Source: Gigantopelta aegis
Taxonomy: Eukaryota > Mollusca > Gastropoda > Neomphalida > Peltospiridae
DNA length: 64,000 nt
Direction of reading: 5' to 3'
Assembly (NCBI RefSeq): GCF_016097555.1
Contig: NW_024533028.1
Coordinates: forward strand, 62,001 to 126,000
Shown one piece after another: positions 1,670 to 41,875 of the stretch. The notes under the pieces are model-generated. The model worked only from the letters and a program-made list of their open reading frames with translations, did no database searches and was not told where the DNA came from. The first letter of the stretch is position 1, and each line of letters begins with the position of its first letter. Made by a program: the position numbers and the translations under genes.

Positions 1670-4600
1670 TTATACACGCAGAGACTGATGCAAGACAACC
1701 TCTCTGGGTATATATACTCTTCCGATTCTACCTACTACTATTAGAATATCTATATTAATTACAGAAAAGAAAGTAATAACCAGTGCGTCAGCAGAAAAAT
1801 TATTATTATTAATAATATTATGTATTATTACATATGCTGTGTTCTTTGTGATATATATCCCAATTATTTGTACAGTTTCATCTATGAGAAATTCAAGAAT
1901 GCTGGTCTGCAGTCTGTATCTACTGTCTCTCATCCTGACTATAATCAACCCCCAACTTGTTCCTCTTCTCTCAATTCGCCATATCAATAATGCATCAACG
2001 TGGTCATTTTCTTTGCCACCTGGACGACAGTTGCCATGGAGATAGCGTACATGCAAGGGAGTTTTCGAGGTTGTTTCCCCTGTTTGGAGGTGATTGTAAG
2101 GCTTCTTCTTGAATGTTGTTCGAGAGATAGTGATCTGTTAGAGAATGGTGATAAACGCGAAATTGTACGGAGTAATTTCTATGCGATTGTATTATATCTA
2201 CTTGCTAAGGAAATACTACGTGGACAAAGGACTTTTCACAGTTCAGCAAGACACCATTTTTATTACAGACATCATGATATGAGATCTGATGATGGTTCCA
2301 AGTGACAACTCTGTTTGGTCACACTATAAACTGCATTCCAAGCACACATGTTCGTGATATGGTTAACTATTGGTCGACTGCTACGGTACAAGAGCTAATG
2401 GTTCAGATGAAAAATGAGGTGCTCCTTTCTTAACAGTGTCTCTGCTTCCTTTTCCTTGTGTTCTTCCAATACAGCTTCTTTGGTTTCTTTTATATTACAC
2501 ATTAAGTCTACTTCAGATTTTAATAATATTAGTAACTGATCAGTGACTCGATCACAGTAGTTTTCTGTCTCTTGGCCTTTGTCATCTGTTGTGAACTTCT
2601 CTTCACTTTTCATTTGTCTCCTTCATTGTTTTCCTGTGTCTCCTCTATCACTTCTTGTGTCTCTTTAATCCCCTCCATTTCTTAGACCATATATTGTGGA
2701 CTGTGTTGAAAGCTTCTGGAGAGAGTTCAGTACAAGTTGTTGAGTGATACCATCTACTTTAACTTCTTGATTTTTCTCAACTACAACTACTTTAGGTAGT
2801 GCGGGAGATTTATCATCATCTTGTAGTCGTCCTTGTTTGTCATCCTCCTTAACAAAGAAATGACTTCATCTTTGTTGTTGACAGTTTTCTCTACTAACAT
2901 TCTTCATTTCCTGAGCTATCATCCTGTATTCACTTGTTATTTTCTTCCATTGCTGGTAGCGAGGGTTCAGGAGATACAGATAATTGGCGAGATAACTGGT
3001 TGATCTTCATCTTCACACTCACTTCTAACTGCTCAGAGACATCATGTTCCACTATTGCTATCAACTGTTCCCTGCTATAGCATCTGTCAATGACAGCTAT
3101 CTTAGAAGGAGGATCGCGAACACACCACTGACGTGGAGGACAAGTGAAATAACGTCGGTCATTGACAGCACCATCATTTTTCCCTCTGGGTTCATCTAGT
3201 TCTCTTCCCAACCACCCCACTCCTTCTGCAAAATTGGTTTCTCCAATAAATTTAACATGTTCCTTTAACAGTATTCCCACCAATACTCTCTGATCAATAT
3301 TGATATCATAAGATAGAGGACCTTCACTAAATCTGGTGATAGACGAAGAGAGACTAGTGATGGATTAGGAGAGAGAGTTGAGGAAGGCTCAAATGTGAGG
3401 AGTATGTCTGAGGGGAAGCAGATGGTCTTAAGTTGTCCTGTAACTTTTATTTTCATGTTCAGGCACTGAATTTAAGACAGGAGCATGTCTAGGACTTTCT
3501 TCACCTTCACTATCCAATGTGTTCAGACACAGAGATGACAGTGAGAAGCTGAACATGGTTTCACTTTTAAGAGTTAGAGGTACCGCCTCAATAGGAAATG
3601 ATGCAGAGACCTGTTTCTCCTTTGCTGTAACAACAGGCAAAGAGTGAAGCAGGAGTTGTTGTTGGATTAGTATCAGGTATAGCGTGAATTGGAGTAGAAC
3701 AACACCTCAGAGGGATTGGAATAGAGATGATTGAATAAGAAACAGGAGTTGTCATTGTTGGATGGGTATCAGATATGGAGTGAGTTGGAGTAGAGGATAC
3801 TAGAGTGAGAGCTGTAGCTAGATGATCTTCAGCTGTAGTAGTAGTTTTTGTTGTGTAGCAATACTGGAAGAATGGAAGGTGAAGAAGACAACTGTGATAA
3901 CAGGTATAACTGGTTCAGCAACAATCATTGGAGGAGTGACACTATAACTGGTAGCTCTGTTGTTGGTGAAATAAGAGATGTGCTCCTTTAGGGCATCTTC
4001 AACGACCTACAATATATGTTTGTATTAAAACATGACACTAATTTATACATCTAACCTGTAGTCTTGCTTGAATTTCTTCTTCTTGCTGTTTGCGCAATGC
4101 CCTTTTTCTTCTGATCTGTTCCTCTTCTTTCCGCTTAAGTTTCTTTTTCTTTCTCTCTGAGTTCCTCCAGAGTTTGATGCAAGCGATAATCATATTCAGT
4201 GGCTTCATTAGATTCTGTTAAATTGTAAGTATTATTATTATTATGTATAGAGATAGATTTCCTGACCCTCTCTTGCTGTTTTGATGGATGATATGGTGTA
4301 GAAGTTAAAGACCTTCAGTCAGTAAATGATTCTCTTCTTCAAAAGTATCTGTGTTATACTCAAATCCACTATTAGGTCGACTGCTCTCTAAACAGTTCCT
4401 CAGAATATCACTACTTTTAGAGTATTCCTCTTCTGGTATAGTAGCACTAGTTCTTTCAGTAGCAGTAGTAGTTTCAATAGTTTTTGACTTTACTGTATCA
4501 TCTGATATAGTATTGGACAATGGTTTAGCACTCTTCACAGTAGAAGTATCATATGATGGTTTTTTCCTCTCTCAAAGTATTCCATGCTTGGTCTATCATT

Positions 4601-11265: not shown

Positions 11266-12267
11266 ATGCCCAAGTTGTATCTAAAAGTGTTGTCTGTACT
11301 GACACTCGAAATAGAGAGGAATATGATGGAGATACACCACTCTACGTCTATCATTGTGTCTGTGGAAAAAATGGCCTTGGTATTAGGTAACAAGTGGTCA
11401 TTAATTAGAATAACACTAATAAGTCCTTCAGACACCACTTTAGATAAACTACCTTTAAGAAGGAGAGACAATGCTAGAGTGGCAGATGCAGCTCGTAATA
11501 TTTATAAATATACTGTGAACAGGCAGGGTTGTATTTCTGAGAAGGTAGGATGAGATTATAATGACTATATAGCTTTTATGTGTGTGTGTAGGTCATATTT
11601 TATAGAGAAGATGGTATAGAGAAACAATACAGATACAAGTGTACTCAGTAAGTTTGTTATATAGAGGTATATCCTTATTCTGTTATGATAGGTGTGGTCT
11701 AAATTTGTTCTATCGTCATTCTGATATTGATGAACAAGTGACATTTATATTTGATAAAAGCATGGTGAAAAGTGGGGAAAAACCAATTACTACTGAAAAA
11801 CCGAAACTATTACAAGAATCAGAAGTTCCTACAAGAAGAAGAAAGGTAATATTATTGGTATAACTGGTTATTGATACTTGTGAAACAGGTTATGATGACT
11901 CGTCATACATATGATGCTGGTAAATATAGCACAGTTACTGTGTCAACAATTGATGAGGAAGAAGAAGAGTTAGAGGCAGTAAGAATGATTAACCCTCATA
12001 TACCATTAACTCAGAGGTCTCTCTCTTTCTCCCCCCTCTCTCCCCCTCTGTGTGTGTAGCGTGAAATAGCAGACTCTTTTGCTAGTAATGCTAGTCTCAT
12101 ACATAATCAATTACAAGAACAGAAGAAGGAAGAAAACGTTATGCTGGACAGGTACTAGAACATTTGGATATTCCATTCCATTATTTCTGCATTATTTGTA
12201 GAAAGCTATTGAAGATTTTATCAAAGCCAAGAAACAAAAAGGAACACTTATTGATAAGATCACATGA
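11266..12267 (+). CDS. STEEP1: STEEP1 homologue (CXorf56; STING ER-exit factor)
   Basis: In vertebrates STEEP1 promotes exit of STING from the endoplasmic reticulum. Seven exons can be read: 11266-11386, 11444-11544, 11592-11647, 11692-11845, 11889-11978, 12060-12151 and 12202-12267. Introns are 44-81 bases with GT..AG ends. The start reads [21 protein letters not shown], as in the human N-terminus, then [68 protein letters not shown], and the tail [13 protein letters not shown] single base is missing after MPK and one A is extra before MALVL; both look like assembly slips because the protein is otherwise colinear with the whole family. The last intron and exon lie inside tandem unit 1, so extra copies of that exon occur downstream. 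Confidence 0.95.
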
Positions 12268-12301
12268 CTGTCATGTGATATTTGAATGATATTTAGTTGA
12301 A

Positions 12302-13665
12302 TTATTGTCTTTGTGGGAAGGGGTCTGATATGATGGTAATAATTCAAGAACTCTTGTAGCAATATCTTTATACACAGTAGCCTATGTAGTGTTTAATAAT
12401 AATTAAGATTAATGGTCTTAAAACTACCTGTGGACTAGAGGGTCTAGACACTACTATGGGCTGACCCTTATCTGACGTCTCACAAATATTTAGGTCAAGT
12501 GGAACTTCCCCTAAATGACATCATAATGATGTCATTGGTTGATTACGAACAACTGACCTAAAATCTCCACATTTATCTGTTGGGCAATCTTTTTAGCTCC
12601 ACCCATTTCCAAAACATTAGACAAATGTCCACATTTTGGACATATATACCCACTCATGTTTTCGACCACACCCAATACCTAAATGTACATATTCCTGTAT
12701 CATAAGATACACTAGACTTACAGGAACATTAACTCTTCGGAACATTTCTGCTCCTCGTGTGGCATCATCCAATGCTAAATCTTGAGGCGTGGTTACTATG
12801 ACAACACCTACGCATACAACAAATAATCCTCTCCTTGCAGTCACATGTACCTGATATAGGGATCTGTTGTGTTATAGTTAATTGGGTATCACCAGTACCA
12901 GGTGGCATATCAATAACTAGTATATCTAGTTCTCCCCAGTCCACTTGTCTAAGTAATTTCTGAATAGCTAACATCACCTAGATAACCACATATTATTAAT
13001 TAATATGTAATTAATAAGAGGAGTTTACCATTAATCCCCTCCAAACAATAGGAGCTGATTCCTCTACTAAAAATCCCATTGACATACTATTATAATAGAT
13101 GTAATAAATGGGTGTGGCTATAACCTACCATTTGACGCCGTAATTTACCAATGGAATCATTCTATCTTCTATTATACATGAGATCATAGATAATATATAA
13201 TATGTTGTGTATGTACCCACGTACGTGGTGAGAGCTCTGGACGTCCAGATAAATTCATCAATTTAGGAAGAGAGGGACCATACACATCAGCATCTAATAA
13301 TCCAACAGATAACCCCTAAATATAATAATACATGTAACCATAGCAACCAATAGTAACTTACCCTCTGAACAACAGACATTCCTATGCTAAATTGACTAGT
13401 AAACATCAGTGAAATTACAACAAATAAATACATCATTACCTGCAGTTGTTGACTTTCCTACTCCACCTTTACCTGATGCTACTAATACCACGTGTTTGAC
13501 TCCAGCAACAGGCCATTACGAGGTAGTCCTCTCTTAGCTAATTCCTCTTGTCCAGTAACTGTAGATAAAAATGTTTTTGTCTCTCTCAATATCGTAAGAC
13601 ATCTACGTATGGCTAAAGACAAGAACATTGCTATCAGAAATTCATGAATGGGGCGTTGTCATCAT
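12302..13665 (-). CDS. NUBPL: NUBPL homologue, copy 1 (mitochondrial Fe-S P-loop NTPase)
   Basis: NUBPL (Ind1) delivers iron-sulfur clusters for respiratory complex I assembly in mitochondria. Seen here are the deviant Walker A of the Mrp/NBP35 family (SGKGGVGKS), [40 protein letters not shown] and a CPKC zinc/iron motif. The proposed end is the TAA at 12302-12304, after [12 protein letters not shown]. The start at 13665 gives a short Arg-rich N-terminus compatible with a mitochondrial presequence. Introns are small (about 45-60 bases). One base appears missing in the KWPVAG exon and another near the C-terminus compared with copy 4, so this copy is probably intact apart from sequencing slips, but that is inference. 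Confidence 0.93.
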
Positions 13666-13670
13666 TACAG

Positions 13671-14287
13671 ACATAGCTATTTGGACTATCCAAGTTTTTA
13701 ACGTTGATAGTGTTTAGGTAAGGATTTTTATTTGTTGTAACATAAAAAAGAGACAATGATACTTTACATTAGTAATATGAAATTAATACAATAAAAACAA
13801 ATATTTTGACACAAGCAGACAACTAACTATACTATTTAGTGTCACAATAAAATTACAGAATTGTCAAATGTAGTTATCAAGTATTGCATTTAGTTTTGGA
13901 ATAGTACATGTAAGATATATCAAGACTGTCAAACACTACTTGTCTGACTCTGTCTACACAGAATTTAATGTACAAATACGAGTCCAATGAAGGTACATCT
14001 ACAAGTTCTATATATGTTTTTGTGAGTAGGTGTAAGTATACAACTATATCAATGGCAACCTCACTGAGGTAGAACCTTAACTTAGTTTGATTTGTTACTT
14101 AAATAAATGTACATGTACAAATAAACGTGTACATGTTTATATCTATTACCTTTTATTGTAGTATATGACATTGTAATATATATAATTGGTAGTGTTGTTA
14201 TAGTTTGCTTAAGCAGGACTAGTTTTATTCTTGACCTTTACAAATATAGTTTAATTTTAGTTATGAAATAGCTCAGATACTAACTAG
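13671..14287. other. Gap between NUBPL and the structured RNA gene
   Basis: No exon is seen. The stretch is AT-rich, with a TGTACATGTACA palindromic run near 14107. Its left end probably carries the NUBPL promoter and its right end leads into the RNA gene promoter. It is repeated in units 2 and 4 and, diverged, in unit 5. Confidence 0.6.
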
Positions 14288-14363
14288 CGTTAATGATATT
14301 CATAGGCGACAAACAGCGCGCGCCCCACAAGGCATGAAGACAAAATCTGACGTACATATAAAA
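14288..14363 (+). promoter_or_regulatory. Type-3 Pol III-like promoter of RNA gene copy 1
   Basis: Three blocks survive in the diverged inverted copy: GTTAATGATATTCATA at about -100 to -82, CCCCACAAG with GAAGACAAAATC at about -66 to -41 (PSE position), and TATAAAA at 14357-14363 (-31 to -25). The sequence between blocks has changed much more. Spacing matches the PSE and TATA of animal U6, 7SK and RNase P genes. Copies 2-4 have the same blocks at 19141-19216, 22059-22134 and 26899-26974. Confidence 0.75.
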
Positions 14364-14387
14364 GGAAATGAAAACCAACTTGGATAG

Positions 14388-14740
14388 GTTGTGTTGTGGG
14401 CCAGCGTTCTGCAATGCATCAGACCTCTGAGATGGTTACCAGCATACTCTACGGAGTATCCGAAAGGCCGACTAGGATAGGGCTGGTAGTCTCCCTTTAA
14501 ACGAGAAGAGGCTGGTGTATTTGTGGTTCCCGGTTCCTGAATGCGAAAATTCCCTAAGAGCTGGAATCCCGTACGGCTGGTTTTAAGTTAGGGCGACGCT
14601 CCAGCCAGGATTACCTCGCGAAGACGAGGGTTACCAAGCCAGGTGGCGGTCCCAGCTAGCAATAGCAGGGAATCCTGGAGCCTAAGTGGAAGCCTGAGTG
14701 GGTGAGCGAGTAGGAATCGTTTGGGCAACACAACATGTTT
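14388..14740 (+). ncRNA. Structured RNA gene, copy 1, about 350 nt, family unknown
   Basis: A GC-richer island lies between a TATA box 31 bases upstream and a run of 13 T at 14738-14750, which would stop RNA polymerase III. The two ends pair perfectly: GTTGTGTTG at 14388-14396 with CAACACAAC at 14726-14734. Inner stems are TACCAGC/GCTGGTA (14437-14443 with 14482-14488); ATACTC-TACG-GAGTAT (14444-14459), a cUACGg tetraloop; CCCTAA/TTAGGG (14552-14557 with 14588-14593); CCTCG/CGAGG (14614-14629); CCAGGATT/AATCCTGG (14605-14612 with 14671-14678); and GCTA-GCAA-TAGC flanked by CCC/GGG (14651-14670), a GNRA loop. No open reading frame of note is present. I find no 7SK, RNase P/MRP, SRP, U1 or U2 signature. 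Length and closed ends resemble RNase P-type RNAs, but the CR motifs are not convincing. Confidence 0.8.
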
Positions 14741-14898
14741 TTTTTTTTTTAATAAATCTTGACTTTATTTAAACTACAAGAAATGTCAGTCAATCCAAAG
14801 TAAAGTTAACGTTAAGTTTTAGTTGTAAAAGTCAAAATTAAAGGACATATTGGAAGTTTCTTTAATGTCAGTTCAACATAACACTAACTATATCATAG

Positions 14899-16119
14899 AT
14901 ATTTGGTGACAACATCCGTCATGTCTCACTGACTGAACATCTTCTCCTTGTGCTATCATCACAACATTGTCAATATTATAGTTTTCAAAAGATATTGGAC
15001 AATGTTAGTGTATTAGACACGATAACCTATATTCTCTCTCTCTTTCTAGTGCACTATAGCTACAGTTAAATTAGGGATATCCTATCACTCTAATGATACT
15101 ACAGTATATACTCCTGGTACATTTCCTAATAGCATTCCTACAACCATTAATATCACTGGTATGTCACATGATTATCACCTGACATTATACTACAACTATT
15201 GTAGAACTTCCACCACTGTTATTTCAAACACAATGTAATTCTGAAGTAGGAGTCCATTTTGGAGGTTCCCCTCATGTTTATATCCATAATCCAAAACCTT
15301 CTGCATGTAATGAATTTCATGTAAGAACATTACACTCTGGACAACTGGTAACTTATACATTTAAGAACCTCATTATTTAATAGACTTGCTAGATTGGGAC
15401 TTTAAGTACTGATAATATAGCTTTCCATCATGATGTTGCATCATTTCATTTTGAAGACTACCAATGTATACTTCATATAAGTGGATGTACCCTCATGTAA
15501 CAACCACACCCACCATTAATGCAATTACTCATGTATTTATTATCAGGTGTTATAGATTAACAACAAATGGTTTGACTCTTCATTATTTGACTAATTTCAA
15601 AGCACTGAAAACAGAACAAGATACAGAAGTGGTTAAAAAATAATGATATCATAATTACATCATATTGACATCATTGCCATAGCCACAAGTTTCTAGTCGA
15701 GGACGTATTATTAAAAGAAAGAAACCAGAACCAGCGTATTATGGAGATTTTGTGGTAAAGGGTTAAAAATTAATGATAATGTGTTCTATAATATATAGTC
15801 AGCTATTCAAGACTTGGATCATGAAAATGAATTAGATTTATTATATACTGTTATCACATTACCTGAAAGGAGAAGAAACAGTAGCTCAATTGTGTTTTTT
15901 AGATGACAATACAGGAAAAAATTACTAAAACTGTACTACTTCCAACTTGGAATCCAGTATGCATCCATCAATTCTTAATTTATATGTCCATTACTTTTAT
16001 AGACTGAATCTAACAGTATTTATTATGAACTGGATTGTCTAATACATGTTGCTGGTAACATCTGTTACTTTTATCGATTGACAAGAGAAACTTCATCATT
16101 AACTGATAACAGTCATTAA
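14899..16119 (+). pseudogene. DCAF17: DCAF17 3' half, copy 1 (5'-truncated)
   Basis: DCAF17 is a substrate receptor of CUL4-DDB1 ubiquitin ligases. Exons read IFGDNIRHVSLTEHL, CTIATVKLGISYHSND, ELPPLLFQTQCNSEVGVHFG with GSPHVYIHNPKP, IGTLSTDNIAFHHDVASF, CYRLTTNGLTLHYLTNF, PQVSSRGRIIKRKKPEPAYY, HENELDLLYTVITLPEG and a last exon ending LTRETSSLTDNSH. Order and spacing match the second half of human DCAF17 (ITDMPPLLF, then DELDLLSVV, then the C-terminus). Introns are about 45-60 bases. Only about 150 bases separate the first exon from the T-run of the RNA gene, and no N-terminal exons exist upstream, where NUBPL sits. The copy is therefore truncated unless 5' exons lie elsewhere and the RNA gene was once inside an intron. 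This copy carries a few extra single bases relative to copy 4. Confidence 0.85.
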
Positions 16120-16304
16120 TAAAAAGTTAACCACAGACATATAACAGTCTTCATTACAAAGTTAATCACAGATATAATCACAGATATTAATATCTATGAT
16201 ATTATTAAGGAGTTACTTATTTTGTAATTATGATTCCATGAATCTCTGTGTATGAGAGTATGAGACAACAGATACCAATAGGAACAAGCCATACTGCTAT
16301 AATT

Positions 16305-17030
16305 AGAGTGCAATCATTATAATATCTTTATATGCAGAAAGATATCGATGCAATTCAGGATTCTGATGAGATAAATAATGCTGACAATTGATGTAGTTAG
16401 AAATATACCTCTAGTCTAAATGATTTCCATTGGTCAGTAGGCAAACCAGCAAACAAGTAATAAAAGATGTGAAAAATTTCGTTCCTAATAGGATACAAAA
16501 ATAAATGTAATGTACTACCAAATTTGGAAGGAAGTCACAGCCAACTACAAACATCTACAGTGTCATGCCAACTAACCTCATGTCCCTGGCGACAAACACG
16601 AGACTTTTCTAAAAGGTACTGCTCTATACCAGCTCCAATAATACGTCCTTGTGATGTTAAATATTAACTGAATAAAAATGCCAAATCGACTGGACTTTGT
16701 TGTTAAGACTTGTTTGTGCATTACCAAATGCTTCAAGTACTGGATTCAACTTATATAACATTAACACAATAACATATAACAAAGATACTTATCATAAATT
16801 TTATGATGTTTATTAAACACATCCATACTTCTCACCTGAATAATCCTGTTTTGAAGTTGTCTTCCAAATTGACTTGATTTACACATGTTCATTAACTATA
16901 ATAGTTTTATAAAAATTCCAACCTTCTCTTTTGTTTGCAAATTAAGTTCTATAAATTGAACACTACAAGGAAATATAAAATACTTTCCCTTGTACATTTT
17001 TGTTAAATGGACAGGATCATGTGGGACAGA
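16305..17030 (-). pseudogene. Myosin motor-domain fragment, copy 1
   Basis: Minus-strand exons encode internal motor-domain pieces: LMNMCKSSQFGRQLQNRIIQ, then [20 protein letters not shown] with FGKF, then [20 protein letters not shown], then FHIFYYLFAGLPTDQWKSF and [28 protein letters not shown] with [10 protein letters not shown] is the switch-1 region of myosins. No P-loop exon, relay or converter is present, so this is only a slice of a gene. The class cannot be decided. The fragment is cut at 17030, where the next tandem unit begins. Confidence 0.85.
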
Positions 17031-17050
17031 TATTTCTGCATTATTTGTAG

Positions 17051-17115
17051 AAAGCTATGAAGATTTTATCAAAGCCAAGAAACAAAAAGGAACACTTATT
17101 GATAAGATCACATGA
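17051..17115 (+). pseudogene. STEEP1: Orphan last exon of STEEP1 (unit 2)
   Basis: This copies the STEEP1 terminal exon with its AG acceptor but without the other exons; it follows the myosin fragment directly. One base is missing (AAAGCTATGAAG instead of AAAGCTATTGAAG), which breaks the frame. Confidence 0.9.
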
Positions 17116-17149
17116 CTGTCATGTGATATTTGAATGATATTTAGTTGAA

Positions 17150-18519
17150 TTATTGTCTTTGTGGGAAGGGGTCCTGATATGATGGTAATAATTCAAGAAC
17201 TCTTGTAGCAATATCTTTATACACAGTAGCCTATGTAATGTTTAATAATAATTAAGATTAATGGTCAAAACTACCTGTGGACTAGAGGGTCTAGACACTA
17301 CTATGGGCTGATAATTATCTGACGTCTTACAAATATTTAGGTCAAGTGGAACTTCCCCTAAATGACATCATAATGATGTATTGGTTGATTACGAACAACT
17401 GACCTAAAATCTCCACATTTATCTGTTGGGCAATCTTTTTAGCTCCACCCATTCAAAAAACATTAGACAAATGTCAAATTTTGGACATATATATCCACTC
17501 ATGTTTTCGACCACACCCAATACCTAAATGTACATATTCCTGTATCATAAGATATACTAGACTTACAGGAACATTAACTCTTCGGAACATTCTGCTCATA
17601 GTGTGGCATCATCCAATGCTAAATCTTGAGGTGTGGTGTACTATGACAACACCTACACATACAACAAATAATCCTCTCCTTGCAGTCACATGTACCTGAT
17701 ATAGGGATCTGTTGTGTTATAGTTAATTGTGTATCACCCAGTACCAGGTGGCATATCAATAACTAGTATATCTAGTTCGCCCCAGTCCACTTGTCTAAGT
17801 AATTTTCTGAATAGCTGACATCACCTAGATAACCACATATTATTAATTAATATGTAATTAATAAGAGGAGTTTACCATTAATCCCCTCCAAACAATAGGA
17901 GCTGATTCCTCTACTAAAAATCCCATTGACATACTTTATAATAGATGTAATAAATGGGTGTGGCTATAACCTACCATTTGATGCCATATTTACCAATGGA
18001 ATCATTCTATCTTTATTATACATGAGATCATAGATAATATATAATATGTTATGTATGTACCCACGTACGTGGTGAGAGCTCTGGACGTCCAGATAAATTC
18101 ATCAATTTAGGAAGAGAGGGACCATACACATCAGCATCTAATAATCCAACAGCTAATAACCCCTAAATATAATAATACATGTAACCATAGCAACCATATA
18201 AGTAACTTACCCTCTGAACAACAGACATTTCTAATGCTAAATTGACTAGTAAACATCAGTGAAATTATTACAACAAATAAATACATCATTACCTGCAGTC
18301 GTTGACTTCCTACTCCACCTTTACCTGATGATACTAATACCACGTGTTTGACTCCAGCAACAGGCCATTTACGAGGTAGTCCTCTCTTAGCTATGTCCTC
18401 TTGTCCAGTAACTGTAGATAAAAAATGTTTTTGTCTCATCTCAATATCGTAAGACATCTGCGTACGGCTAAAGACAAGAACATTGCTATCAGAAATTCAT
18501 GAATGGGCGTTGTCATCAT
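17150..18519 (-). CDS. NUBPL: NUBPL homologue, copy 2
   Basis: This has the same exon layout as the copy at 29741-31107. The first exon keeps [19 protein letters not shown], with Ser for Ala before the P-loop, but lacks one T in the bases coding GKSTT. It also has other single-base differences, for example in the CPKC exon (near 17470) and the LLRQVDW exon (near 17800). This copy shows the most coding differences among the four. It may be a decaying duplicate or the worst-polished copy; raw-read depth would tell. Confidence 0.85.
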
Positions 18520-19140
18520 TACAGACATAGCTATTTGGACTATCCAAGTTTTTAACGTTGATAGTGTTTAGGTAAGGATTTTTATTTGTTGTAACATAAA
18601 AAAGAGACAATGATACTTTTACATTAGTAATATGAAATTAACACAATAAAATAAATATTTTGACACAAGCAGACAACTAACTATACTATTTAGTGTCACA
18701 ATAAAATTACAGAATTGTCAAATGTAGTTATCAAGTATTGCATTTAGTTTTGGAATAGTACATGTAAGGATATATCAAGACTGTCAATACTATTTGTCTG
18801 ACTGTCTACACAGAATTTAATGTACAAATATGAGTCCAATGAAGGTACATCTACAAGTTCTATATATGTTTTTGTGAGTAGGTGTAAGTATACAACTGTA
18901 TCAATGGCAACCTCACTGGAGGTAGAACCTTAACTTAGTTTGACTTGTTACTTAAATAAATGTACATGTACAAATAAACATGTACATGTTTATATCTATT
19001 ACCTCTTAATTGTAGTATATGACATTGTAATATATATAATTAGTAGTGTTGTTATAGTTTGCTTAAGCAGGACTAGTTTTATTCTTGACCTTTTAAAATA
19101 TAGTTTAATTTTAGTTATTAAATAGTCACAGATACTAACT

Positions 19141-19216
19141 AGCGTTAATGATATTCATAGGCGACAAACAGCGCGCCCCACAAGGCCATGAGACAAAATC
19201 TGACGTACATATAAAA
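19141..19216 (+). promoter_or_regulatory. Type-3 Pol III-like promoter of RNA gene copy 2
   Basis: The same three blocks as copy 1 (distal TTAATGATATTCATA, PSE-position CCCCACAAGG..GAC-AAAATC, TATAAAA) sit at the same spacing upstream of the RNA start. Confidence 0.7.
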
Positions 19217-19240
19217 GGAAATGAAAACCAACTTGGATAG

Positions 19241-19592
19241 GTTGTGTTGTGGGCCAGCGTTCTGCAATGCATCAGACCTCTGAGATGGTTACCAGCATAC
19301 TCTACGGAGTATCCGAAAGGCCGACTAGGATAGGGCTGGTAGTCTCCCTTTAAACGAGAAGAGGCTGGTGTATTTGTGGTTCCCGGTTCCTGAATGCGAA
19401 ATTCCCTAAGAGCTGGAATCCCGTACGGCTGGTTTTAAGTTAGGGCGATGCTCCAGCCAGGATTACCTCGCGAAGACGAGGGTTACCAAGCCAGGTGGCG
19501 GTCCCAGCTAGCAATAGCAGGGAATCCTGGAGCCTAAGTGGAAGCCTGAGTGGGTGAGCGAGTAGGAATCGTTTGGGCAACACAACATGTTT
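19241..19592 (+). ncRNA. Structured RNA gene, copy 2
   Basis: The body is nearly identical to copy 1, with a C-to-T change in GGCGATGCTCC shared only with copy 3. The closing stem GTTGTGTTG / CAACACAAC (19578-19586) is intact. The terminator is a run of about 15 T at 19590-19604. Confidence 0.8.
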
Positions 19593-19746
19593 TTTTTTTT
19601 TTTTAATAAATCTCGACTTTATTTAAACTACAAGAAATGTCAGTCAAGTAAAGTTTATGTTAAGTTTAGTTGTTAAAAGTCAAAATTAAAGGACATATTG
19701 GAAGTTCCTTTAATGTCAGTTTAACATAACACTAACTATATCATAG

Positions 19747-20921
19747 ATATTTGGTGACAACATCCGTGATGTCTCACCGACTGAAGATCTCCTTGTGCTA
19801 TCATCACAACATTGTCAATATTATAGTTTTCAATGGATATTGGAAAATGTTAGTGTATTAGACAAGATAACCTATATTCTCTCTCTCTTTCTAGTGCACT
19901 ATAGCTACAGTTAAATTAGGGATATCCTATCAGTCTAATGATACTACAATATATACTCCTGGTACATTTCCTAATAGTGTTCCTACAACCATTAATATCA
20001 CTGGTATGTCACATGATTATCACCTGACATTATACTACACTATTGTAGAACTTCCACCACTGCTATTTCAAACACAATGTAATTCTGAAGTAGGAGTCCA
20101 TTTTGGAGGCTCCCCTCATGTTTATATCCATAATCCAAAACCTGCTGCATGTAATGAATTTCATGTAAGAACATTACGCTCTGGACAACTGGTAACTTAT
20201 ACATTTAAGAACCTCATTATTTAATAGACTTGCTAGATTGGGACTTTAAGTACTGATAATGTAGCTTTCCATCATGATGTTGCATCATTTCATTTTGAAG
20301 ACTACCAACGTATACTTCATATAAGTGGATGTACCCTCATGTAACAACCACACCCACCATTAATGCAATTACTCATGTATTTATTATCAGGTGTTATAGA
20401 TTAACAACAAATGGTTTGACTCTTCAATATTTGACTAATTTCAAAGCACTGAAAACAGAACAAGATACAGAAGTGGTAAAAATAATAATGACATCATTGC
20501 CATAAGTTTCTAGTCGATCTTATTATTGAAACCAGAACCAGCGTATTAAGATTTTGTGGTAAAGGGTTAAAAATTAATGATAATGTGTTCTATAATATAT
20601 AGTCGGCTATTCAAGACTTGGATCATGAAAATGAATTAGATTTATTATATACTGTTATCACATTACCTGAAGGAGAAGAAACAGTAGCTCAATTGTGTTT
20701 TTTAGATGACAATACTGGAAAAATTACTAAAACTGTACTACTTCCAACTTGGAATCCAGTATGCATCCATCAATTCTTAATTTATATATCCATTACTTTT
20801 ATAGGCTGAATCTAACAGTATTTATTATGAACTGGATTGTCTAATACATGTTGCTGGTAACATCTGTTACTTTTATCAATTGACAAGAGAAACTTCATCA
20901 TTAACTGATAACAGTTATTAA
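19747..20921 (+). pseudogene. DCAF17: DCAF17 3' half, copy 2 (5'-truncated)
   Basis: This has the same exon order as copy 1. The segment around 20490-20545 (RGRIIKRKKPEPAYYG exon) is shortened by several small deletions compared with copies 1 and 4, so this exon is damaged here. The last codon before the stop is TAT rather than CAT. Confidence 0.8.
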
Positions 20922-21104
20922 TAAAAAGTTAACCACAGACATATAACAGTCTTCATTACAAAGTTAATCACAGATATAATCACAGATATTAATATCTATG
21001 ATAATTATTATTAAGGAGTTACTTATTTGTAATTATGATTCCATGAATCTCTGTGTATGAAGTATGAGACAACAGATACCCAATAGGAACAAGCCATACC
21101 TGCT

Positions 21105-21937
21105 GCTATAATTAGAGTTGCAATCATTTATAATATCTTTATATGCAGAAAGATATCGATGCAATTCAGGATTCTGATGAGATAAAGAATGCTGACAATT
21201 GATGTGTTAACAAATATACCTCTAGTCTAAATGATTTCCATTGGTCAGTAGGCAGACCAGCAAACAAGTAATAAAAGATGTGAAAATTTTGTTCCTAATA
21301 GGATACAAAAATAAATGTAATGTACTACAAATTTGGAAGGAAGTCACAGCCAACTACAAATATCTACAGTGTCATGCCAACTAACCTCATGTCCCTGGCG
21401 ACAAACACGAGACTTTTCTAAAAGGTATTGTTCTATACCAGCTCCAATAATACGTCCTTGTGATGTAAATATTAACTGAATAAATTTGCCAAATCGACTG
21501 GAGTTGTTGTTAAGACTTGTTTGTGCATTACCAAATGCTTCAAGTACTGGATTCAACTATTATAACATTAACACAATAACATATAACAAAGATACTTATC
21601 ATAAATTTTATGATGTTTATTAACACATCCATACTTCTCACCTGAATAATCCTGTTTTGAAGTTGTCTTCCAAATTGGCTTGATTTACACATGTTCATTA
21701 ACTATAATAAATTATAAAAATTCCAACCTTCTCTTTTGTTTGCAAATTAAGTTCTATAAATTGAAACTAACAAGGAAATATCAAATACTTTCCCTTGTAC
21801 ATGTTTTGTTAAATGGACAGGATCATGTGGGACAGATGTGGGTCTCAAAGCACCATTAGATGAAATTAACAACATGTAACTGTGTGGCTTAAAAGAATTA
21901 AACTTGCTACTTAAAGGATTGTTTCTTTTTGTTGTTC
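21105..21937 (-). pseudogene. Myosin motor fragment, copy 2, with a longer 5' exon
   Basis: The exons are the same as in copy 1 ([20 protein letters not shown] at 21490-21556 is clean here). Unlike the other copies, the open frame continues to the right of 21836: an exon with acceptor ..TTTTATAG at about 21938-21945 reads TTKRNNPLSSKFNSFKPHSY, MLLISSNGALRPTSVP and HDPVHLTKH. This is either more of the same gene (possibly a loop-1 insertion of the motor) or an adjoining exon. It shows where the source locus continues past the array breakpoint. Confidence 0.8.
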
Positions 21938-21965
21938 CTATAAAATAAATAATGACAAAAATTAA
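21837..21965. other. Unique 129-base insert between units 2 and 3
   Basis: This is the only sequence between 12.2 and 31.4 kb not present in the other units. Its left part is the longer myosin-side exon; its right part is AT-rich. It then jumps directly into the RNA gene upstream region at about 21966. Confidence 0.85.
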
Positions 21966-22058
21966 TATAATTAGTAGTGTTGTTATAGTTTGCTTAAGCA
22001 GGACTAGTTTTGTTCTTGACCTTTAAAAATATAATTTAATTTTAGTTATTTACATAGA

Positions 22059-22134
22059 GCGTTAATGATATTCATAGGCGACAAACAGCGTGCCCCACAA
22101 TAGCATGAAGACAAAATCTGACGTACATATAAAA
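22059..22134 (+). promoter_or_regulatory. Type-3 Pol III-like promoter of RNA gene copy 3
   Basis: The same blocks at the same spacing are kept, although the sequence further upstream is cut at about 21966 and some bases between blocks are missing. Confidence 0.7.
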
Positions 22135-22158
22135 GGAAATGAAAACCAACTTGGATAG

Positions 22159-22510
22159 GTTGTGTTGTGGGCCAGCGTTCTGCAATGCATCAGACCTCTG
22201 AGATGGTTACCAGCATACTCTACGGAGTATCCGAAGGCCGACTAGGATAGGGCTGGTAGTCTCCCTTTAAACGAGAAGAGGCTGGTGTATTTGTGGTTCC
22301 CGGTTCCTGAATGCGAAATTCCCTAAGAGCTGGAATCCCGTACGGCTGGTTTTAAGTTAGGGCGATGCTCCAGCCAGGATTACCTCGCGAAGACGAGGGT
22401 TACCAAGCCAGGTGGCGGTCCCAGCTAGCAATAGCAGGGAATCCTGGAGCCTAAGTGGAAGCCTGAGTGGTGTGAGCGAGTAGGAATCGTTTGGGCAACA
22501 CAACATGTTT
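22159..22510 (+). ncRNA. Structured RNA gene, copy 3
   Basis: The body is nearly identical to copy 2, including GGCGATGCTCC. The closing stem is intact. A run of about 16 T lies at 22508-22523. Confidence 0.8.
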
Positions 22511-22675
22511 TTTTTTTTTTTTTAATAAATCTCGACTTTATTTAAACTACAAGAAATGTCAGTCAAGTAAAGTTTATGTTAAGTTTTAGTTGTTAAAAGT
22601 AAAATTAAAGGACATATTGGAAGTTCCTTTAATGTCAGTTCAACATAACACTAACTCTATCATAGATATTTGGTG

Positions 22676-23876
22676 ACAACATCCGTGATGTCTCACCGAC
22701 TGAAGATCTCCTTGTGCTATCATCACAACATTGTCAATATTATAGTTTTCAATGGATATTGGACAATGTTAGTGTATTAGACAAGATAACCTATATTCTC
22801 TCTCTCTTTCTAGTGCACTATAGCTACAGTTAAATTAGGGATATCCTATCAGTCTAATGATACTACAATATATACTCCTGGTACATTTCCTAATAGCATT
22901 CCTACAACCATTAATATCACTGGTATGTCACATGATTATCACCTGACATTATACTACACTATTGTAGAACTTCCACCACTGCTATTTCAAACACAATGTA
23001 ATTCTGAAGTAGGAGTCCATTTTGGAGGCTCCCCTCATGTTTATATCCATAATCCAAAACCTGCTGCATGTAATGAATTTCATGTAAGAACATTACGCTC
23101 TGGACAACTGGTAACTTATACATTTAAGAACCTCATTATTTAATAGACTTGCTAGATTGGGACTTTAAGTACTGATAATGTAGCTTTCCATCATGATGTT
23201 GCATCATTTCATTTTGAAGACTACCAACGTATACTTCATATAAGTGGATGTACCCTCATGTAACAACCACACCCACCATTAATGCAATTACTCATGTATT
23301 TATTATCAGGTGTTATAGATTAACAACAAATGGTTTGACTCTTCAATATTTGACTAATTTCAAAGCACTGAAAACAGAACAAGATACAGAAGTGGTAAAA
23401 ATAATGACATCATAATACATCATATTGACATCATTGCCATAGCCACAAGTTTCTAGTCGAGGACGTATTATTAAAAGAAAGAAACCAGAACAGCGTATTA
23501 TGGAGATTTTGTGGTAAAGGGTTAAAAATTAATGATAATGTGTTCTATAATATATAGTCGGCTATTCAAGACTTGGATCATGAAAATGAATTAGATTTAT
23601 TATATACTGTTATCACATTACCTGAAGGAGAAGAAACAGTAGCTCAATTGTGTTTTTTAGATGACAATACAGGAAAAATTACTAAAACTGTACTACTTCC
23701 AACTTGGAATCCAGTATGCATCCATCAATTCTTAATTTATATGTCCATTCCTTTTATAGACTGAATCTAACAGTATTTATTATGAACTGGATTGTCTAAT
23801 ACATGTTGCTGGTAACATCTGTTACTTTTATCGATTGACAAGAGAAACTTCATCATTAACTGATAACAGTCATTAA
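22676..23876 (+). pseudogene. DCAF17: DCAF17 3' half, copy 3 (5'-truncated)
   Basis: This has the same exon order as copy 1. The exon DHENELDLLYTVITLPEGEE with QLCFLDDNTGKITKTVLL is cleanly open here (23573-23710). No N-terminal exons are present. Confidence 0.83.
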
Positions 23877-24044
23877 TAAAAAGTTAACCACAGCATATAA
23901 CAGTCTTCATTACAAAGTTAATCACAGATATAATCACAGATATTAATATCTATGATATTATTAAGGAGTTATTTATTTTGTAATTATGATTCCATGAATC
24001 TCTGTGTATGAGAGTATGAGAGTGTTGATACCCAATAGGAACAA

Positions 24045-24785
24045 GCCATACCTTCATAATTAGAGTTGCAATCATTTATAATATCTTTCTATGCAGAAAG
24101 ATACAAATGCAATTCAGGATTTTTGAGCAATAAATAATGCTGACAATTGATGCGTTAACAAATATACCTCTAGTCTAAATGATTTCCATTGGTCAGTAGA
24201 GCAAACCAGCAAACAAGTAATTCTTATTGAAAATTTTGTTCCTAATAGGATACAAAAATAAATGTAATGTACTACCAAATTTGGAAGGAAGTCACAGCCA
24301 ACTACAAACATCTACAGTGTCATGCAAACTAACCTCATGTAACCTGGCGACAAACACGAGATTTTTCTAAAAGGTATGCTCTATACCAGCTCCAATAATA
24401 CGTCCTTGTGATGTAAATATTAACTGAATAAAAATGCCAAATCGATGGAGTTGTTGTTAAGACTTGTTTTGTGCATTACCAAATGCTTCAAGTACTGGAT
24501 TCAACTATTATAACATTAACACAATAACATATAACACAAGATACTTATCATAAATTTTATGATGTTTATTAACACATCCATATTCTCACCTGAATAATCC
24601 TGTTTTGAAGTTGTCTTCCAAATTGACTTGATTTACACATGTTCAATAACTATAATAAATTATAAAAATTCCAACCTTCTCTTTTGTTTGCAAATTAAGT
24701 TCTATAAATTGTAAAATAACAAGGAAATATAAAATACTTTCCCTTGTACATGTTTTGTTAAATGGACATGATCATGTGGGACAGA
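24045..24785 (-). pseudogene. Myosin motor fragment, copy 3
   Basis: The exon order matches copy 1, with more differences (TGTAACCTGGCG for TGTCCCTGGCG, ATCGATGGAG for ATCGACTGGAG). It is the most altered of the four slices. It is cut at 24785. Confidence 0.8.
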
Positions 24786-24804
24786 TATTTCTCATTATTT
24801 GTAG

Positions 24805-24874
24805 AAAGCTATTGAAGATTTTATCAAAGCCAAGACAAAAACAAAAAGGAACACTTATTGATAAGATCACATGA
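24805..24874 (+). pseudogene. STEEP1: Orphan last exon of STEEP1 (unit 4)
   Basis: The terminal exon copy has a short extra stretch (AAGACAAAAACAAAAAGG) relative to the parent exon, and no upstream exons. Confidence 0.88.
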
Positions 24875-24908
24875 CTGTCATGTGATATTTGAATGATATT
24901 TAGTTGAA

Positions 24909-26268
24909 TTATTGTCTTTGTGGGAAGGGGTCCTGATATGATGGTAATAATTCAAGAACTCTTGTAGCAATATCTTTATACACAGTAGCCTATGTAATGT
25001 TTAATAATAATTAAGATTAATGGTCTAAAACTACCTGTGGACTAGAGGGTCTAGACACTACTATGGCTGACCCTTATCTGACGTCTAACAATTATTTAGG
25101 TCAAGTGGAACTTCCCCTAAATGACATCATAATGATGTATTGTTAATTACGAACAACTGACCTAAAATCTCCACATTTATCTGTTGGGCAATCTTTTTAG
25201 CTCCACCCATTCCAAAACATTAGACAAATGTCCACATTTTTTACATATATATCCACTCTGTTTTCGACCACACCCAATACCTAAATGTACATATTCTGTA
25301 TCATAAGATATACTAGACTTACAGGAACATTAAACTCTTCGGAACATTTCTGCTCCTCGTGTGGCATCATCAATGCTAAATCTTGAGGTGTGGTTACTAT
25401 GACAACACCTACACATACAACAAATAATCCTCTCCTTGCAGTCACATGTACCTGATATAGGGATCTGTTGTGTTTATAGTTAATTGTGTATCACCAGTAC
25501 CAGGTGGCATATCAATAACTAGTATATCTAGTTCTCCCCAGTCCAATTGTCTAAGTAATTTCTGAATAGCTGACATCACCTAGATAACCACATAATATTA
25601 ATTAATATGTAATCTAATAAGCCAGTTTTACCATTAATCCCCTCCAAACAATAGGAGCTGATTCCTCTAATAAAAATCCCATTGACATACTATTATAATA
25701 GATGTAATAAATGGGTGTGGCTATAACCTACCATTTGATCCATACTTTACCATGGATTCCCTCTATTTCTATTATACATGAGATCATAGATAATATATAA
25801 TTGTTATGTATGACCCACGTACGTGGTGAGAGCTCTGGACTCCAGATAATTCATCAATTTAGGAAGAGAGGGACCATACACATCAGCATCTAATAATGAG
25901 AAACAGATAATATAAATATAATAATACATGTAACCATAGCAACCAATAGTAACTTACCCTCTGAACAACAGACATTCCTAATGCTAATGCTAAATTGACT
26001 AGTAAACATCAGTGAAATTTATTACAACAAATAAATACATGAGTACCTGCAGTCGTTGACTTTCCTACTCCACCTTTACCTGATGCTACTAATACCACGT
26101 GTTTGACTCCAGCAACAGGCCATTTACGAGGTAGTCCTCTCTTAGCTAATTCCTCTTGTCCAGTAACTGTAGATAAAATGCTTTTGTCTCTCTCAATATC
26201 GTAAGACATCTCTACGGCTAAAGACAAGAACATTGCTATCAGAAATTCATGAATGGGGTTGTCATCAT
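24909..26268 (-). CDS. NUBPL: NUBPL homologue, copy 3
   Basis: The first exon is open through [20 protein letters not shown] with GKSTTA. Several later exons carry single-base losses or small changes, for example around 25740-25850, where the middle exon is altered and a few bases are missing. The same Mrp/NBP35-family motifs can be found. The function is likely as for the other copies if those changes are assembly slips. Confidence 0.87.
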
Positions 26269-26898
26269 TACAGACATAGCATTTGGACTATCCAAGTTTT
26301 AGATTGTTGATAGTGTTTAGGTAAGGATTTTTATTTGTTGTAACATAAAAAAGAGACAATGATACTTTACATTAGTAATATGAAATAACACAATAAAACA
26401 ATATTTTGACACAAGCAGACAACTAACTATACTATTTAGTGTCACAATAAAATTACAGAATTGTCAAATGTAGTTATCAAGTATTGCATTTAGTTTTGGA
26501 ATAGTACATGTAAGATATATCAAGACTGTCAAACACTATTTGTCTGACTCTGTCTACACAGAATTTAATGTACAAATACGAGTCCAATGAAGGTACATCT
26601 ACAAGTTCTATATATGTTTTTGTGAGTAGGTGTAAGTATACAACTATATCAATGGCAACCTCACTGGAGGTAGAACCTTAACTTAGTTTGATTTGTTACT
26701 TAAATAAATGTACATGTACAAATAAACATGTACATGTTTATATCTATTACCTTTTATTGTAGTATATGACATTGTAATATATATAATTGGTAGTGTTGTT
26801 ATAGTTTGCTTAAGCAGGACTAGTTTTTATTCTTGACCTTTACAAATATAGTTTAATTTTAGTTATGAAATAGCTCAGATACTAACTAGCGTTAATGA

Positions 26899-26974
26899 TA
26901 TTCATAGGCGACAAACAGCGCGCCCCACAAGGCCATGAAGACAAAATCTGACGTACATATAAAAGGAAATGAAA
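26899..26974 (+). promoter_or_regulatory. Type-3 Pol III-like promoter of RNA gene copy 4
   Basis: This matches the copy 1 promoter, with the same distal, PSE-position and TATA blocks. Confidence 0.7.
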
Positions 26975-26998
26975 ACCAACTTGGATAGGTTGTGTTGT

Positions 26999-27340
26999 GG
27001 GCCAGCGTTCTGCAATGCATCAGACCTCTGAGATGGTTACCAGCATACTCTACGGAGTATCCGAAAGGCCGACTAGGATAGGGCTGGTAGTCTCCCTTTA
27101 AACGAGAAGAGGCTGGTGTATTTGTGGTTCCCGTTCCTGAATGCGAAATTCCCTAAGAGCTGGAATCCCGTACGGCTGGTTTTAAGTTAGGGCGACGCTC
27201 CAGCCAGGATTACCTCGCGAAGACGAGGGTTACCAAGCCAGGTGGCGGTCCCAGCTAGCAATAGCAGGGAATCCTGGAGCCTAAGTGGAAGCCTGAGTGG
27301 GTGAGCGAGTAGGAATCGTTTGGGCAACACAACATGTTTT
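26999..27340 (+). ncRNA. Structured RNA gene, copy 4
   Basis: The body is nearly identical to copy 1 (type A, GGCGACGCTCC). One G is missing in the CCCGGTTCC segment. The closing stem is intact, with a run of 13 T at 27337-27349. Confidence 0.8.
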
Positions 27341-27499
27341 TTTTTTTTTAATAAATCTTGACTTTATTTAAACTACAAGAAATGTCAGTCAATCCAAAGT
27401 AAAGTTAACGTTAAGTTTTAGTTGTTAAAAGTCAAAATTAAAGGACATATTGGAAGTTTCTTTAATGTCAGTTTCAACATAACACTAACTATATCATAG

Positions 27500-28709
27500 A
27501 TATTTGGTGACAACATCCGTCATGTCTCACTGACTGAACATCTCCTTGTGCTATCATCACAACATTGTCAATATTATAGTTTTCAAAAGATATTGGACAA
27601 TGTTAGTGTATTAGACACGATAACCTATATTCTCTCTCTCTTTCTAGTGCACTATAGCTACAGTTAAATTAGGGATATCCTATCACTCTAATGATACTAC
27701 AGTATATACTCCTGGTACATTTCCTAATAGCATTCCTACAACCATTAATATCACTGGTATGTCACATGATTATCACCTGACATTATACTACACTATTGTA
27801 GAACTTCCACCACTGTTATTTCAAACACAATGTAATTCTGAAGTAGGAGTCCATTTTGGAGGTTCCCCTCATGTTTATATCCATAATCCAAAACCTTCTG
27901 CATGTAATGAATTTCATGTAAGAACATTACACTCTGGACAACTGGTAACTTATACATTTAAGAACCTCATTATTTAATAGACTTGCTAGATTGGGACTTT
28001 AAGTACTGATAATATAGCTTTCCATCATGATGTTGCATCATTTCATTTTGAAGACTACCAATGTATACTTCATATAAGTGGATGTACCCTCATGTAACAA
28101 CCACACCCACCATTAATGCAATTACTCATGTATTTATTATCAGGTGTTATAGATTAACAACAAATGGTTTGACTCTTCATTATTTGACTAATTTCAAAGC
28201 ACTGAAAACAGAACAAGATACAGAAGTGGTAAAAATAATGATATCATAATTACATCATATTGACATCATTGCCATAGCCACAAGTTTCTAGTCGAGGACG
28301 TATTATTAAAAGAAAGAAACCAGAACCAGCGTATTATGGAGATTTTGTGGTAAAGGGTTAAAAATTAATGATAATGTGTTCTATAATATATAGTCAGCTA
28401 TTCAAGACTTGGATCATGAAAATGAATTAGATTTATTATATACTGTTATCACATTACCTGAAGGAGAAGAAACAGTAGCTCAATTGTTTTTTAGATGACA
28501 ATACAGAAAAATTACTAAAACTGTACTACTTCCAACTTGGAATCCAGTATGCATCCATCAATTCTTAATTTATATGTCCATTACTTTTATAGACTGAATC
28601 TAACAGTATTTATTATGAACTGGATTGTCTAATACATGTTGCTGGTAACATCTGTTACTTTTATCGATTGACAAGAGAAACTTCATCATTAACTGATAAC
28701 AGTCATTAA
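27500..28709 (+). pseudogene. DCAF17: DCAF17 3' half, copy 4 (5'-truncated)
   Basis: This is the clean type A version; most exons can be read without correction, including QVSSRGRIIKRKKPEPAYYG. A two-base loss falls in the QLCFLDD stretch near 28490. No N-terminal exons are present. Confidence 0.85.
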
Positions 28710-28884
28710 TAAAAAGTTAACCACAGACATATAACAGTCTTCATTACAAAGTTAATCACAGATATAATCACAGATATTAATATCTATGATATTATTAAGG
28801 AGTTACTTATTTTGTAATTATGATTCCATGAATCTCTGTGTATGAGAGTATGAGACAACAGATACCCAATAGGAACAAGCCATA

Positions 28885-29620
28885 CCTGCTATAATTAGAG
28901 TTGCAATCATTTATAATATCTTTATATGCAGAAAGATATCGATGCAATTCAGGATTCTGATGAGATAAATAATGCTGACAATTGATGCGTTAACAAATAT
29001 ACCTCTAGTCTAAATGATTTCCATTGGTCAGTAGGCAAACCAGCAAACAAGTAATAAAAGATGTGAAAATTTCGTTCCTAATAGGATACAAAAATAAATG
29101 TAATGTACTACCAAATTTGGAAGGAAGTCACAGCCAACTACAAACATCTACAGTGTCATGCCAACTAACCTCATGTCCCTGGCGACAAACACGAGACTTT
29201 TCTAAAAGGTATTGCTCTATACCAGCTCCAATAATACGTCCTTGTGATGTAAATATTAACTGAATAAAAATGCCAAATCGACTGGAGTTGTTGTTAAGAC
29301 TTTGTTTGTGCATTACCAAATGCTTCAAGTACTGGATTCAACTATTATAACATTAACACAATAACATATAACAAAGATACTTATCATAAATTTTATGATG
29401 TTTATTAACACATCCATACTTCTCACCTGAATAATCCTGTTTTGAAGTTGTCTTCCAAATTGACTTGATTTACACATGTTCATTAACTATAATAAATTAT
29501 AAAAATTCCAACCTTCTCTTTTGTTTGCAAATTAAGTTCTATAAATTGAAAATAACAGGAAATATAAAATACTTTCCCTTGTACATGTTTTGTTAAATGG
29601 ACAGGATCATGTGGGACAGA
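28885..29620 (-). pseudogene. Myosin motor fragment, copy 4
   Basis: The exon order matches copy 1. One extra T follows NAQTS-coding bases near 29300 (AAGACTTTGTTTG). Confidence 0.83.
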
Positions 29621-29640
29621 TATTTCTGCATTATTTGTAG

Positions 29641-29706
29641 AAAGCTATTGAAGATTTTATCAAAGCCAAGAAACAAAAAGGAACACTTATTGATAAGATC
29701 ACATGA
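29641..29706 (+). pseudogene. STEEP1: Orphan last exon of STEEP1 (unit 5)
   Basis: An unchanged copy of the terminal exon ([18 protein letters not shown] then KIT and stop) with its acceptor, but no upstream exons. Confidence 0.92.
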
Positions 29707-29740
29707 CTGTCATGTGATATTTGAATGATATTTAGTTGAA

Positions 29741-32030: not shown

Positions 32031-32380
32031 CCCTTGTGTGTTGCCCAAACGATTCCTACTCGCTCACCCACTCAGGCTTCCACTTAGGCTCCAGGATTCC
32101 CTGCTATTGCTAGCTGGGACCGCCACCTGGCTTGGTAACCCTCGTCTTCGCGAGGTAATCCTGGCTGGAGCGTCGCCCTAACTTAAAACCAGCCGTACGG
32201 GATTCCAGCTCTTAGGGAATGTCGCATTCAGGAACCGGGAACCACAAATACACCAGCCTCATCTCGTTTAAAGGGAGACTACCAGCCCTATCCTAGTCGG
32301 CCTTTCGGATACTCCGTAGAGTATGCTGGTAACCATCTCAGAGGTCTGATGCATTGCAGAACGCTGGCCCACAACACACT
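32031..32380 (-). ncRNA. Structured RNA gene, inverted fifth copy
   Basis: On the minus strand the body differs from the tandem copies at only a few positions over about 340 bases (for example GAGATGAGG for GAGAAGAGG, GCGACATT for GCGAAATT). Its closing stem is GTGTGTTG (32379-32372) with CAACACAC (32043-32036), so the eighth pair counted from the inside is G-C where copies 1-4 have T-A. The terminator is a T-run, seen as 17 A at 32014-32030. The flanks have diverged much more than the body. Confidence 0.82.
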
Positions 32381-32405
32381 GGCACTCATGACTGTTCAAG
32401 TTTCC

Positions 32406-39695: not shown

Positions 39696-41875
<2,180 letters not shown>

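Follow-up and report, generated by a model that had tools for sequence, protein, structure and literature searches.

A candidate multicopy family of type 3 Pol III structural RNA genes without an Rfam counterpart

A GC-richer island lying between a TATA box and a T-run, without a reading frame of its own, raises the question of whether it is a gene for a structural RNA, a drifted member of a known RNA family or a repeat. A sequence-only reading had taken it for a functional small nuclear or cytoplasmic RNA. Analysis of the window, i.e. the whole 64-kb stretch of DNA (64,000 nt) in which the island lies, indicates that it is very probably a real multicopy RNA gene with an snRNA-type promoter and without a known family. 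To the fuller statement, that we are dealing with a multicopy family of Pol III structural RNA genes of about 347 nt that has no Rfam family, we would give a probability of roughly 0.6. The RNA appears to be known as a kind, namely a type 3 Pol III structural RNA, and as a family it appears to be either new or highly divergent.

The island itself proved real. The body of the first copy (c1), roughly 347 bases long, has a GC content of 0.536 against 0.349 for the window, and the 26 sliding windows (among about 6,366) that reach the GC content of the body minus 0.02 all fall on five copies of the same sequence. No open frame runs through the body, the stops numbering 5, 5 and 5 in the forward frames and 1, 6 and 5 in the reverse ones. 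Self-comparison of the window yielded five copies, four on the forward strand and one inverted (Table 1), where a single locus had been seen earlier and the four further copies had been missed. Each of the five consists of the body, a TATA block, an upstream block and a T-run. A BLAST search (word size 7, E 1e-3) found no further copy in the 64 kb, and outside the copies and their near flanks no exact match to the body of at least 13 bases occurs on either strand of the window. The copies c1–c4 lie about 4.8, 2.9 and 4.8 kb apart in a segmental array; past about -300 the sequence upstream of c3 does not align to the other array copies. These extra copies are far stronger evidence for a gene than folding is.

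Table 1. Coordinates in the window of the RNA gene copies, their control elements and the predicted structural elements of c1.
Feature	Position	Strand	Remark
RNA body copy c1 (the locus in question)	14388..14734	+	340/342 aligned bases identical to c5 despite diverged flanks
Upstream block CGTTAATGANATTCATANGCG of c1, about -100 to -80	14288..14308	+	DSE-like position
PSE-position block of c1, CCCCACAA...TGAAGACAAAATC, about -65 to -41	14323..14347	+	largely kept in c5
TATA box TATAAAAG of c1, at -31	14357..14364	+	
Terminator T-run of c1	14738..14750	+	13 T
P1 5' strand	14388..14397	+	predicted to pair with 14725-14734, mean probability 0.86 in c1
P1 3' strand	14725..14734	+	predicted to pair with 14388-14397
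ATACTC-TACG-GAGTAT hairpin, cUACGg loop	14444..14459	+	probability 0.68 in c1, 0.60 in c5
Central hairpin (predicted)	14525..14568	+	GGTTCC/GGAATC outer, CCGGTTC/GAGCTGG middle, GAAT/ATTC inner
Distal domain (predicted)	14605..14678	+	hairpins 14614-14629, 14630-14647, 14650-14671
RNA gene copy c2	19241..19592	+	99.4% to c1, 353 columns
Promoter blocks of c2	19143-19163 and 19192-19221	+	
RNA gene copy c3	22159..22510	+	98.9% to c1, 354 columns
Promoter blocks of c3	22060-22080 and 22110-22139	+	
RNA gene copy c4	26989..27339	+	99.4% to c1, 353 columns
Promoter blocks of c4	26890-26910 and 26940-26969	+	
RNA gene copy c5, inverted, strongly diverged flanks	about 32031..32380	-	BLAST 99.1%, 343 columns
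Promoter blocks of c5	32460-32480 and 32401-32430	-	

The extent of conservation is best seen in the comparison of c1 with c5 (intervals are given relative to the predicted start). The body is nearly unchanged over [2,345), and identity drops at once on both of its sides, to 0/2 over [0,2) and 3/7 over [345,352), so that conservation sets in about two bases past the predicted start and gives out a few bases ahead of the T-run. Upstream, the spacer between TATA and start at [-20,0) is unconserved (8/20), and [-70,-20) is kept at 42/49. Farther out, identity amounts to 60–65% over [-160,-70) and 15/23 over [352,375), then to 56–59% over [-300,-160) and [375,500) (79/140 and 73/124), and beyond 300 bases upstream and 500 downstream it is 43–47%, the level that unrelated sequences give on alignment. 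Outside the promoter block the flanks of c5 thus show 43–65% identity to c1, and from this comparison c5 appears to be an old relative of the array copies. The bodies match at 338/342 to 342/342 in all ten copy pairs; however, the identity among c1–c4 carries little weight because the array copies share their near flanks too, which are mostly 90–100% alike. The argument from conservation therefore rests mainly on one diverged copy, c5.

Read in this way, the conserved footprint would be the promoter plus the transcript rather than a whole duplicated block, and the retention of both of these with loss of the spacer between them marks a gene whose promoter is external. A near-identical body within diverged flanks suggests selection acting together with gene conversion; multicopy RNA genes are known to stay alike by these two processes, and the identity of the bodies could in part reflect recent gene conversion. 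As a yardstick we used the adjacent NUBPL-like copies (a name that we presume from motifs of the Mrp/ParA-type P-loop ATPases), in which a 170-base segment with the Walker-A exon matches at 159/169 to 163/170 in six pairs. The RNA body is somewhat better conserved than this exon segment, which is frameshifted in two of its four copies. The internal changes in the five-copy alignment of the RNA come to three substitutions and four indels, and three of the four indels are run-length changes that may be sequencing errors.

A 21-base pattern at about -100 and a 30-base pattern spanning the PSE-position block and the TATA box are found with 0 mismatches in 5/5 copies (0.01 and 0.00 matches expected in the window) and nowhere else in it at up to three mismatches, although both were built from the copies themselves and so are not an independent discovery. 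The upstream block of c1 we take to be POU/octamer-like. From the start of GACAAAATC to the start of TATAAAAG there are exactly 18 bases in every copy, from TATAAAAG to the first TGTGTTGTGG 33 bases in c1–c4 and 34 in c5, and the T-run after the body counts 13–17 T in all five. The TATA box and T-run reported earlier are therefore confirmed, and the snRNA-type external layout of promoter and terminator that had been proposed from one locus is supported by blocks present in each copy. A gene-external TATA at about -30, a conserved element within -70 to -40 and a T-run directly past the RNA are what is found here, and the spacing fits a type 3 (snRNA-type) Pol III promoter by analogy with known genes. 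The human U6-1 gene is described as having its PSE at -65 to -48, and the TATA box as steering such promoters to Pol III (PMC9652321); the genes for RNase P, MRP, 7SK and U6 are given as carriers of type 3 promoters (PMC10498592). The locus resembles U6 snRNA genes in its promoter geometry, having a block at the PSE position, a TATA at about -30 and a T-run, whereas the RNA is more than three times longer and has no U6 match in Rfam.

The two ends of the RNA are complementary, as had been noticed before: the P1 helix of c1 (GTTGTGTTG/CAACACAAC) comprises nine perfect base pairs, to which one G-U pair can be added. Its counterpart in c5 (9 bp, probability 0.98) is built of different arms, each pairing with its own partner (GTGTGTTGT/GCAACACAC in c5), and P1 is the firmest element of the predicted fold. 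The hairpin with the cUACGg loop, identical in sequence in 5/5 copies, and the GCTA-GCAA-TAGC hairpin (14655-14666 in c1) were likewise recovered. The outer, middle and inner helices of the central hairpin have probabilities of 0.47, 0.75 and 0.81 in c1 and 0.70, 0.83 and 0.95 in c5 (one G of the middle helix is missing in c4), and those of the three distal hairpins lie at 0.87–0.99 in both copies. A possible closing stem of the distal domain, CCAGGATT/AATCCTGG, reaches 0.57 in c1, and in c5 other pairing takes its place. The helix probabilities cover c1 and c5; if a stem counts as clear once some part of it reaches at least 0.6, the elements clear in both copies are P1, the UACG hairpin, the central hairpin and the three distal hairpins. 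The earlier figure of at least six internal stems holds as a count of possible stems; the rest are strong in c1 or in c5 and in its counterpart are weak or missing.

Taken by itself, the stability of the predicted fold is modestly above chance and would not convince. On the forward strand z was -2.09 (4/100 shuffles as stable) and -1.70 in a second run (6/150), and the opposite strand gave z 0.17 with 82/150 shuffles as stable, so that the excess is confined to the forward strand. Two global folds compete, a local 5' domain in c1 (about 0.5–0.7) versus a long-range arrangement (about 0.3) that is preferred by several helices of c5 (up to 0.9) and that RNAalifold adopts with 122 pairs. None of these 122 pairs shows two-sided changes among the five copies. 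The BLAST alignment gives a T-A to G-C change in P1 of c5, where the five-copy alignment places gaps; it is compensatory by the BLAST alignment alone and RNAalifold counts none, so we claim no covariation in P1. Among the internal substitutions, one of three turns G-C into G-U and the other two affect positions that RNAalifold leaves unpaired; with three such changes a fold can hardly be tested. The internal multi-stem fold is thus ambiguous in these models and without reliable covariation. Of the earlier inference of a functional small RNA, the structured RNA gene, the promoter layout and the lack of an Rfam family stand, and the specific multi-stem fold is a candidate at most, two folds being in competition.

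Searches for a family were negative within their scope. Rfam at the gathering threshold gave 0 matches over the whole window, and at E<=10 the 366-base searches with c1 and c5 returned chance-level hits alone, far below gathering scores; the strong Rfam hit by which the earlier reading would have fallen did not turn up. The hits psm_mec_RNA, Qrr, SNORA38 and WT1-AS_2 belong to this chance level and were rejected. A tRNA search found none, and the C box is absent from all five copies; short H and D strings present in 5/5 are non-diagnostic. For the SRP54-binding motif, as for CR-I and CR-V, the tests relied on what we take to be the consensus patterns; the SRP54 patterns occur in 0/5 copies and Rfam gives no SRP match. 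The absence of this motif, of the 7SK GAUC and of CR-I/CR-V, all noted before for the single locus, thus extends to all five copies. Four exact stretches of the body had 0 matches in viral contigs and two of them 0 in prokaryotic genome contigs, where a eukaryotic gene is unexpected, and a distant-mode search of phages with the body gave no match. Within the literature searches made, no paper was recognised as describing this RNA.

Known Pol III RNAs that have diverged strongly have to be weighed against these results. RNase P and RNase MRP RNAs possess a helix closing their 5' and 3' ends, a feature common to them and this RNA, and they agree with it in size class, in the external type 3 promoter with TATA and in the T-run terminator. 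Past the UACG hairpin, at about position 75, there is also a GAAAGGCC string that we take to be loosely CR-I-like, and strings of the GARAR type, the motif of L8 in MRP, occur in 5/5 copies. Against this, a degenerate 5-base string whose positions vary among the copies is non-diagnostic, c5 has lost the GARAR at about 116, the GAAAGG string lacks one A in c3, and GAAAGTC, GNAANNTCNGNG and two CR-V-like patterns, which we take to stand for CR-I and CR-V, are found in 0/5 copies. Rfam gives no RNase P or MRP match up to E 10 with either c1 or c5. Human RPPH1 and RMRP are listed with lengths of 341 nt and about 270 nt and type 3 promoters (PMC10498592), and five copies are unusual beside the single-copy RPPH1 of the same source. 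Work using Infernal is reported to have found sponge RNase P RNA (PMC4287351), and the blank in Rfam would accordingly be informative if the host is a sponge, though short of proof. That the locus encodes a strongly diverged RNA of RNase P or RNase MRP we consider unlikely.

That the locus is a drifted counterpart of 7SK, controlling P-TEFb in this lineage, is to our judgement distinctly unlikely. The size agrees with the 331–334 nt of human 7SK, for which a circular model with an end-to-end helix is described (PMC10083321), the promoter is of the type 3 that 7SK has (PMC10498592), and the sequence of 7SK is reported to vary in protostomes (PMC8406779). However, the hallmarks named for 7SK are the GAUC motif of SL1 and a conserved SL4 (PMC10083321), and neither is seen here: GATC, the hallmark HEXIM motif, occurs in 0/5 copies, and between P1 and the U-tail, the expected place of SL4, there is no hairpin, the 3' strand of P1 being followed after 3 bases (c1–c4) or 5 bases (c5) by the T-run. 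Rfam gives no 7SK match.

A SINE-like or array-borne repeat without cellular function would account for the multiple copies, of which four are set about 4.8 or 2.9 kb apart in a segmental array. A tRNA-derived SINE would carry internal A and B boxes; the B box is found in 0/5 copies, and a loose A-box pattern has one match in each of four copies and two in c3. The external promoter blocks are present in every copy, which speaks against a retrocopied element, since a retrocopy would come without the upstream promoter; copies devoid of these blocks, the sign of a repeat, were not seen in the window. The inverted c5, conserved in promoter and body only, and the lack of a sixth copy in the 64 kb also argue against this explanation, which we hold to be quite improbable. 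Arrays of near-identical RNA genes have a precedent in Hydractinia, where near-identical ncRNA copies are described in tandem units (PMC11067881); those arrays, as far as that account goes, contain known families in tens to hundreds of copies, whereas the 64 kb studied here contain five copies of an RNA without a known family.

The position of c1, c2 and c4 upstream of NUBPL-like exons on the opposite (minus) strand would suit a regulatory or divergent promoter transcript of these neighbours. This reading is highly improbable: a motif scan finds no NUBPL motif between 18.4 and 25.8 kb, around c3, whose far upstream sequence is unaligned, c5 and its neighbour have the same orientation, the RNA is somewhat better conserved than the exon segment, frameshifted in two copies, and the RNA gene has its own TATA and T-run. 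Least of all would we expect a telomerase RNA such as plants and ciliates make with Pol III, the Pol III layout, the closed P1 and one CCCTAA hexamer seen by eye in the body being offset by the lack in 5/5 copies of any 7-base permutation of a telomeric template of the CCCTAA (TTAGGG) type and by the sponge telomerase RNAs, which are box H/ACA RNAs where reported (PMC8480181).

Under the preferred reading, a multicopy Pol III structural RNA gene, we infer Pol III transcription, RNP assembly and a cellular function. A SNAPc-like factor would bind the block at -65 to -41 and TBP, within a Brf2-type TFIIIB, the TATA box at -31; Pol III would start at about 14388 and terminate within the T-run, so that the transcript would end in a 3' oligo-U to which La can bind. 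The P1 helix may protect both ends, and the interior arms (the UACG-capped hairpin, the central hairpin and the three distal hairpins) may serve as a protein-binding scaffold, the product being presumably a housekeeping RNP. Purifying selection and gene conversion would keep the copies near-identical, as in multicopy snRNA genes. Tentatively one may go further and see here a housekeeping RNA family not described before, belonging to one animal lineage or shared by all of that lineage's relatives. The RNA of about 347 nt would then be the scaffold of an RNP whose function is either new or is fulfilled elsewhere by an RNA such as 7SK, of which this lineage would have no recognisable form; we put the joint claim somewhat short of an even chance.

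To our knowledge, animals have no more than a handful of large type 3 Pol III RNAs (RNase P, MRP and 7SK). Each of these stands at the base of an important RNP. If the preferred reading is true, a further large type 3 RNA, multicopy and near-frozen, would mean a new housekeeping RNA; alternatively, the locus would show how far a known RNA can drift.

The surroundings of the RNA genes allow some minor observations. The segmental array with NUBPL-like exons extends over 12232-31504, the exons lying on the minus strand. Two of the four copies, at 13409-13578 and 18261-18430, have a frameshift in the Walker-A exon, which may be real decay or an assembly indel. Searched against the PDB, the 50-residue NUBPL-like exon matched Fe-S carrier ATPases weakly (E 0.37 and 0.5), with a capsid protein ranked ahead of them (E 0.014). 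Elsewhere in the window, an AT-rich satellite-like array of CTCATACCTATATACT units occupies 61962-62276. Coiled-coil frames at 34144-35838 (minus strand) resemble CDK5RAP2 and CCDC93 weakly and stay under the curated cut-offs, with E 0.00043 for CDK5RAP2. A CAP-Gly domain (E 6.4e-15) is encoded at 2930-3364 on the minus strand; this domain and the CDK5RAP2-like match do no more than suggest a eukaryotic, perhaps animal, origin of the window. The open frame at 40998-41621 (plus strand) matches HA2_C and, below the cut-off, OB_NTP_bind, and probably encodes the C-terminal portion of a DEAH-type RNA helicase.
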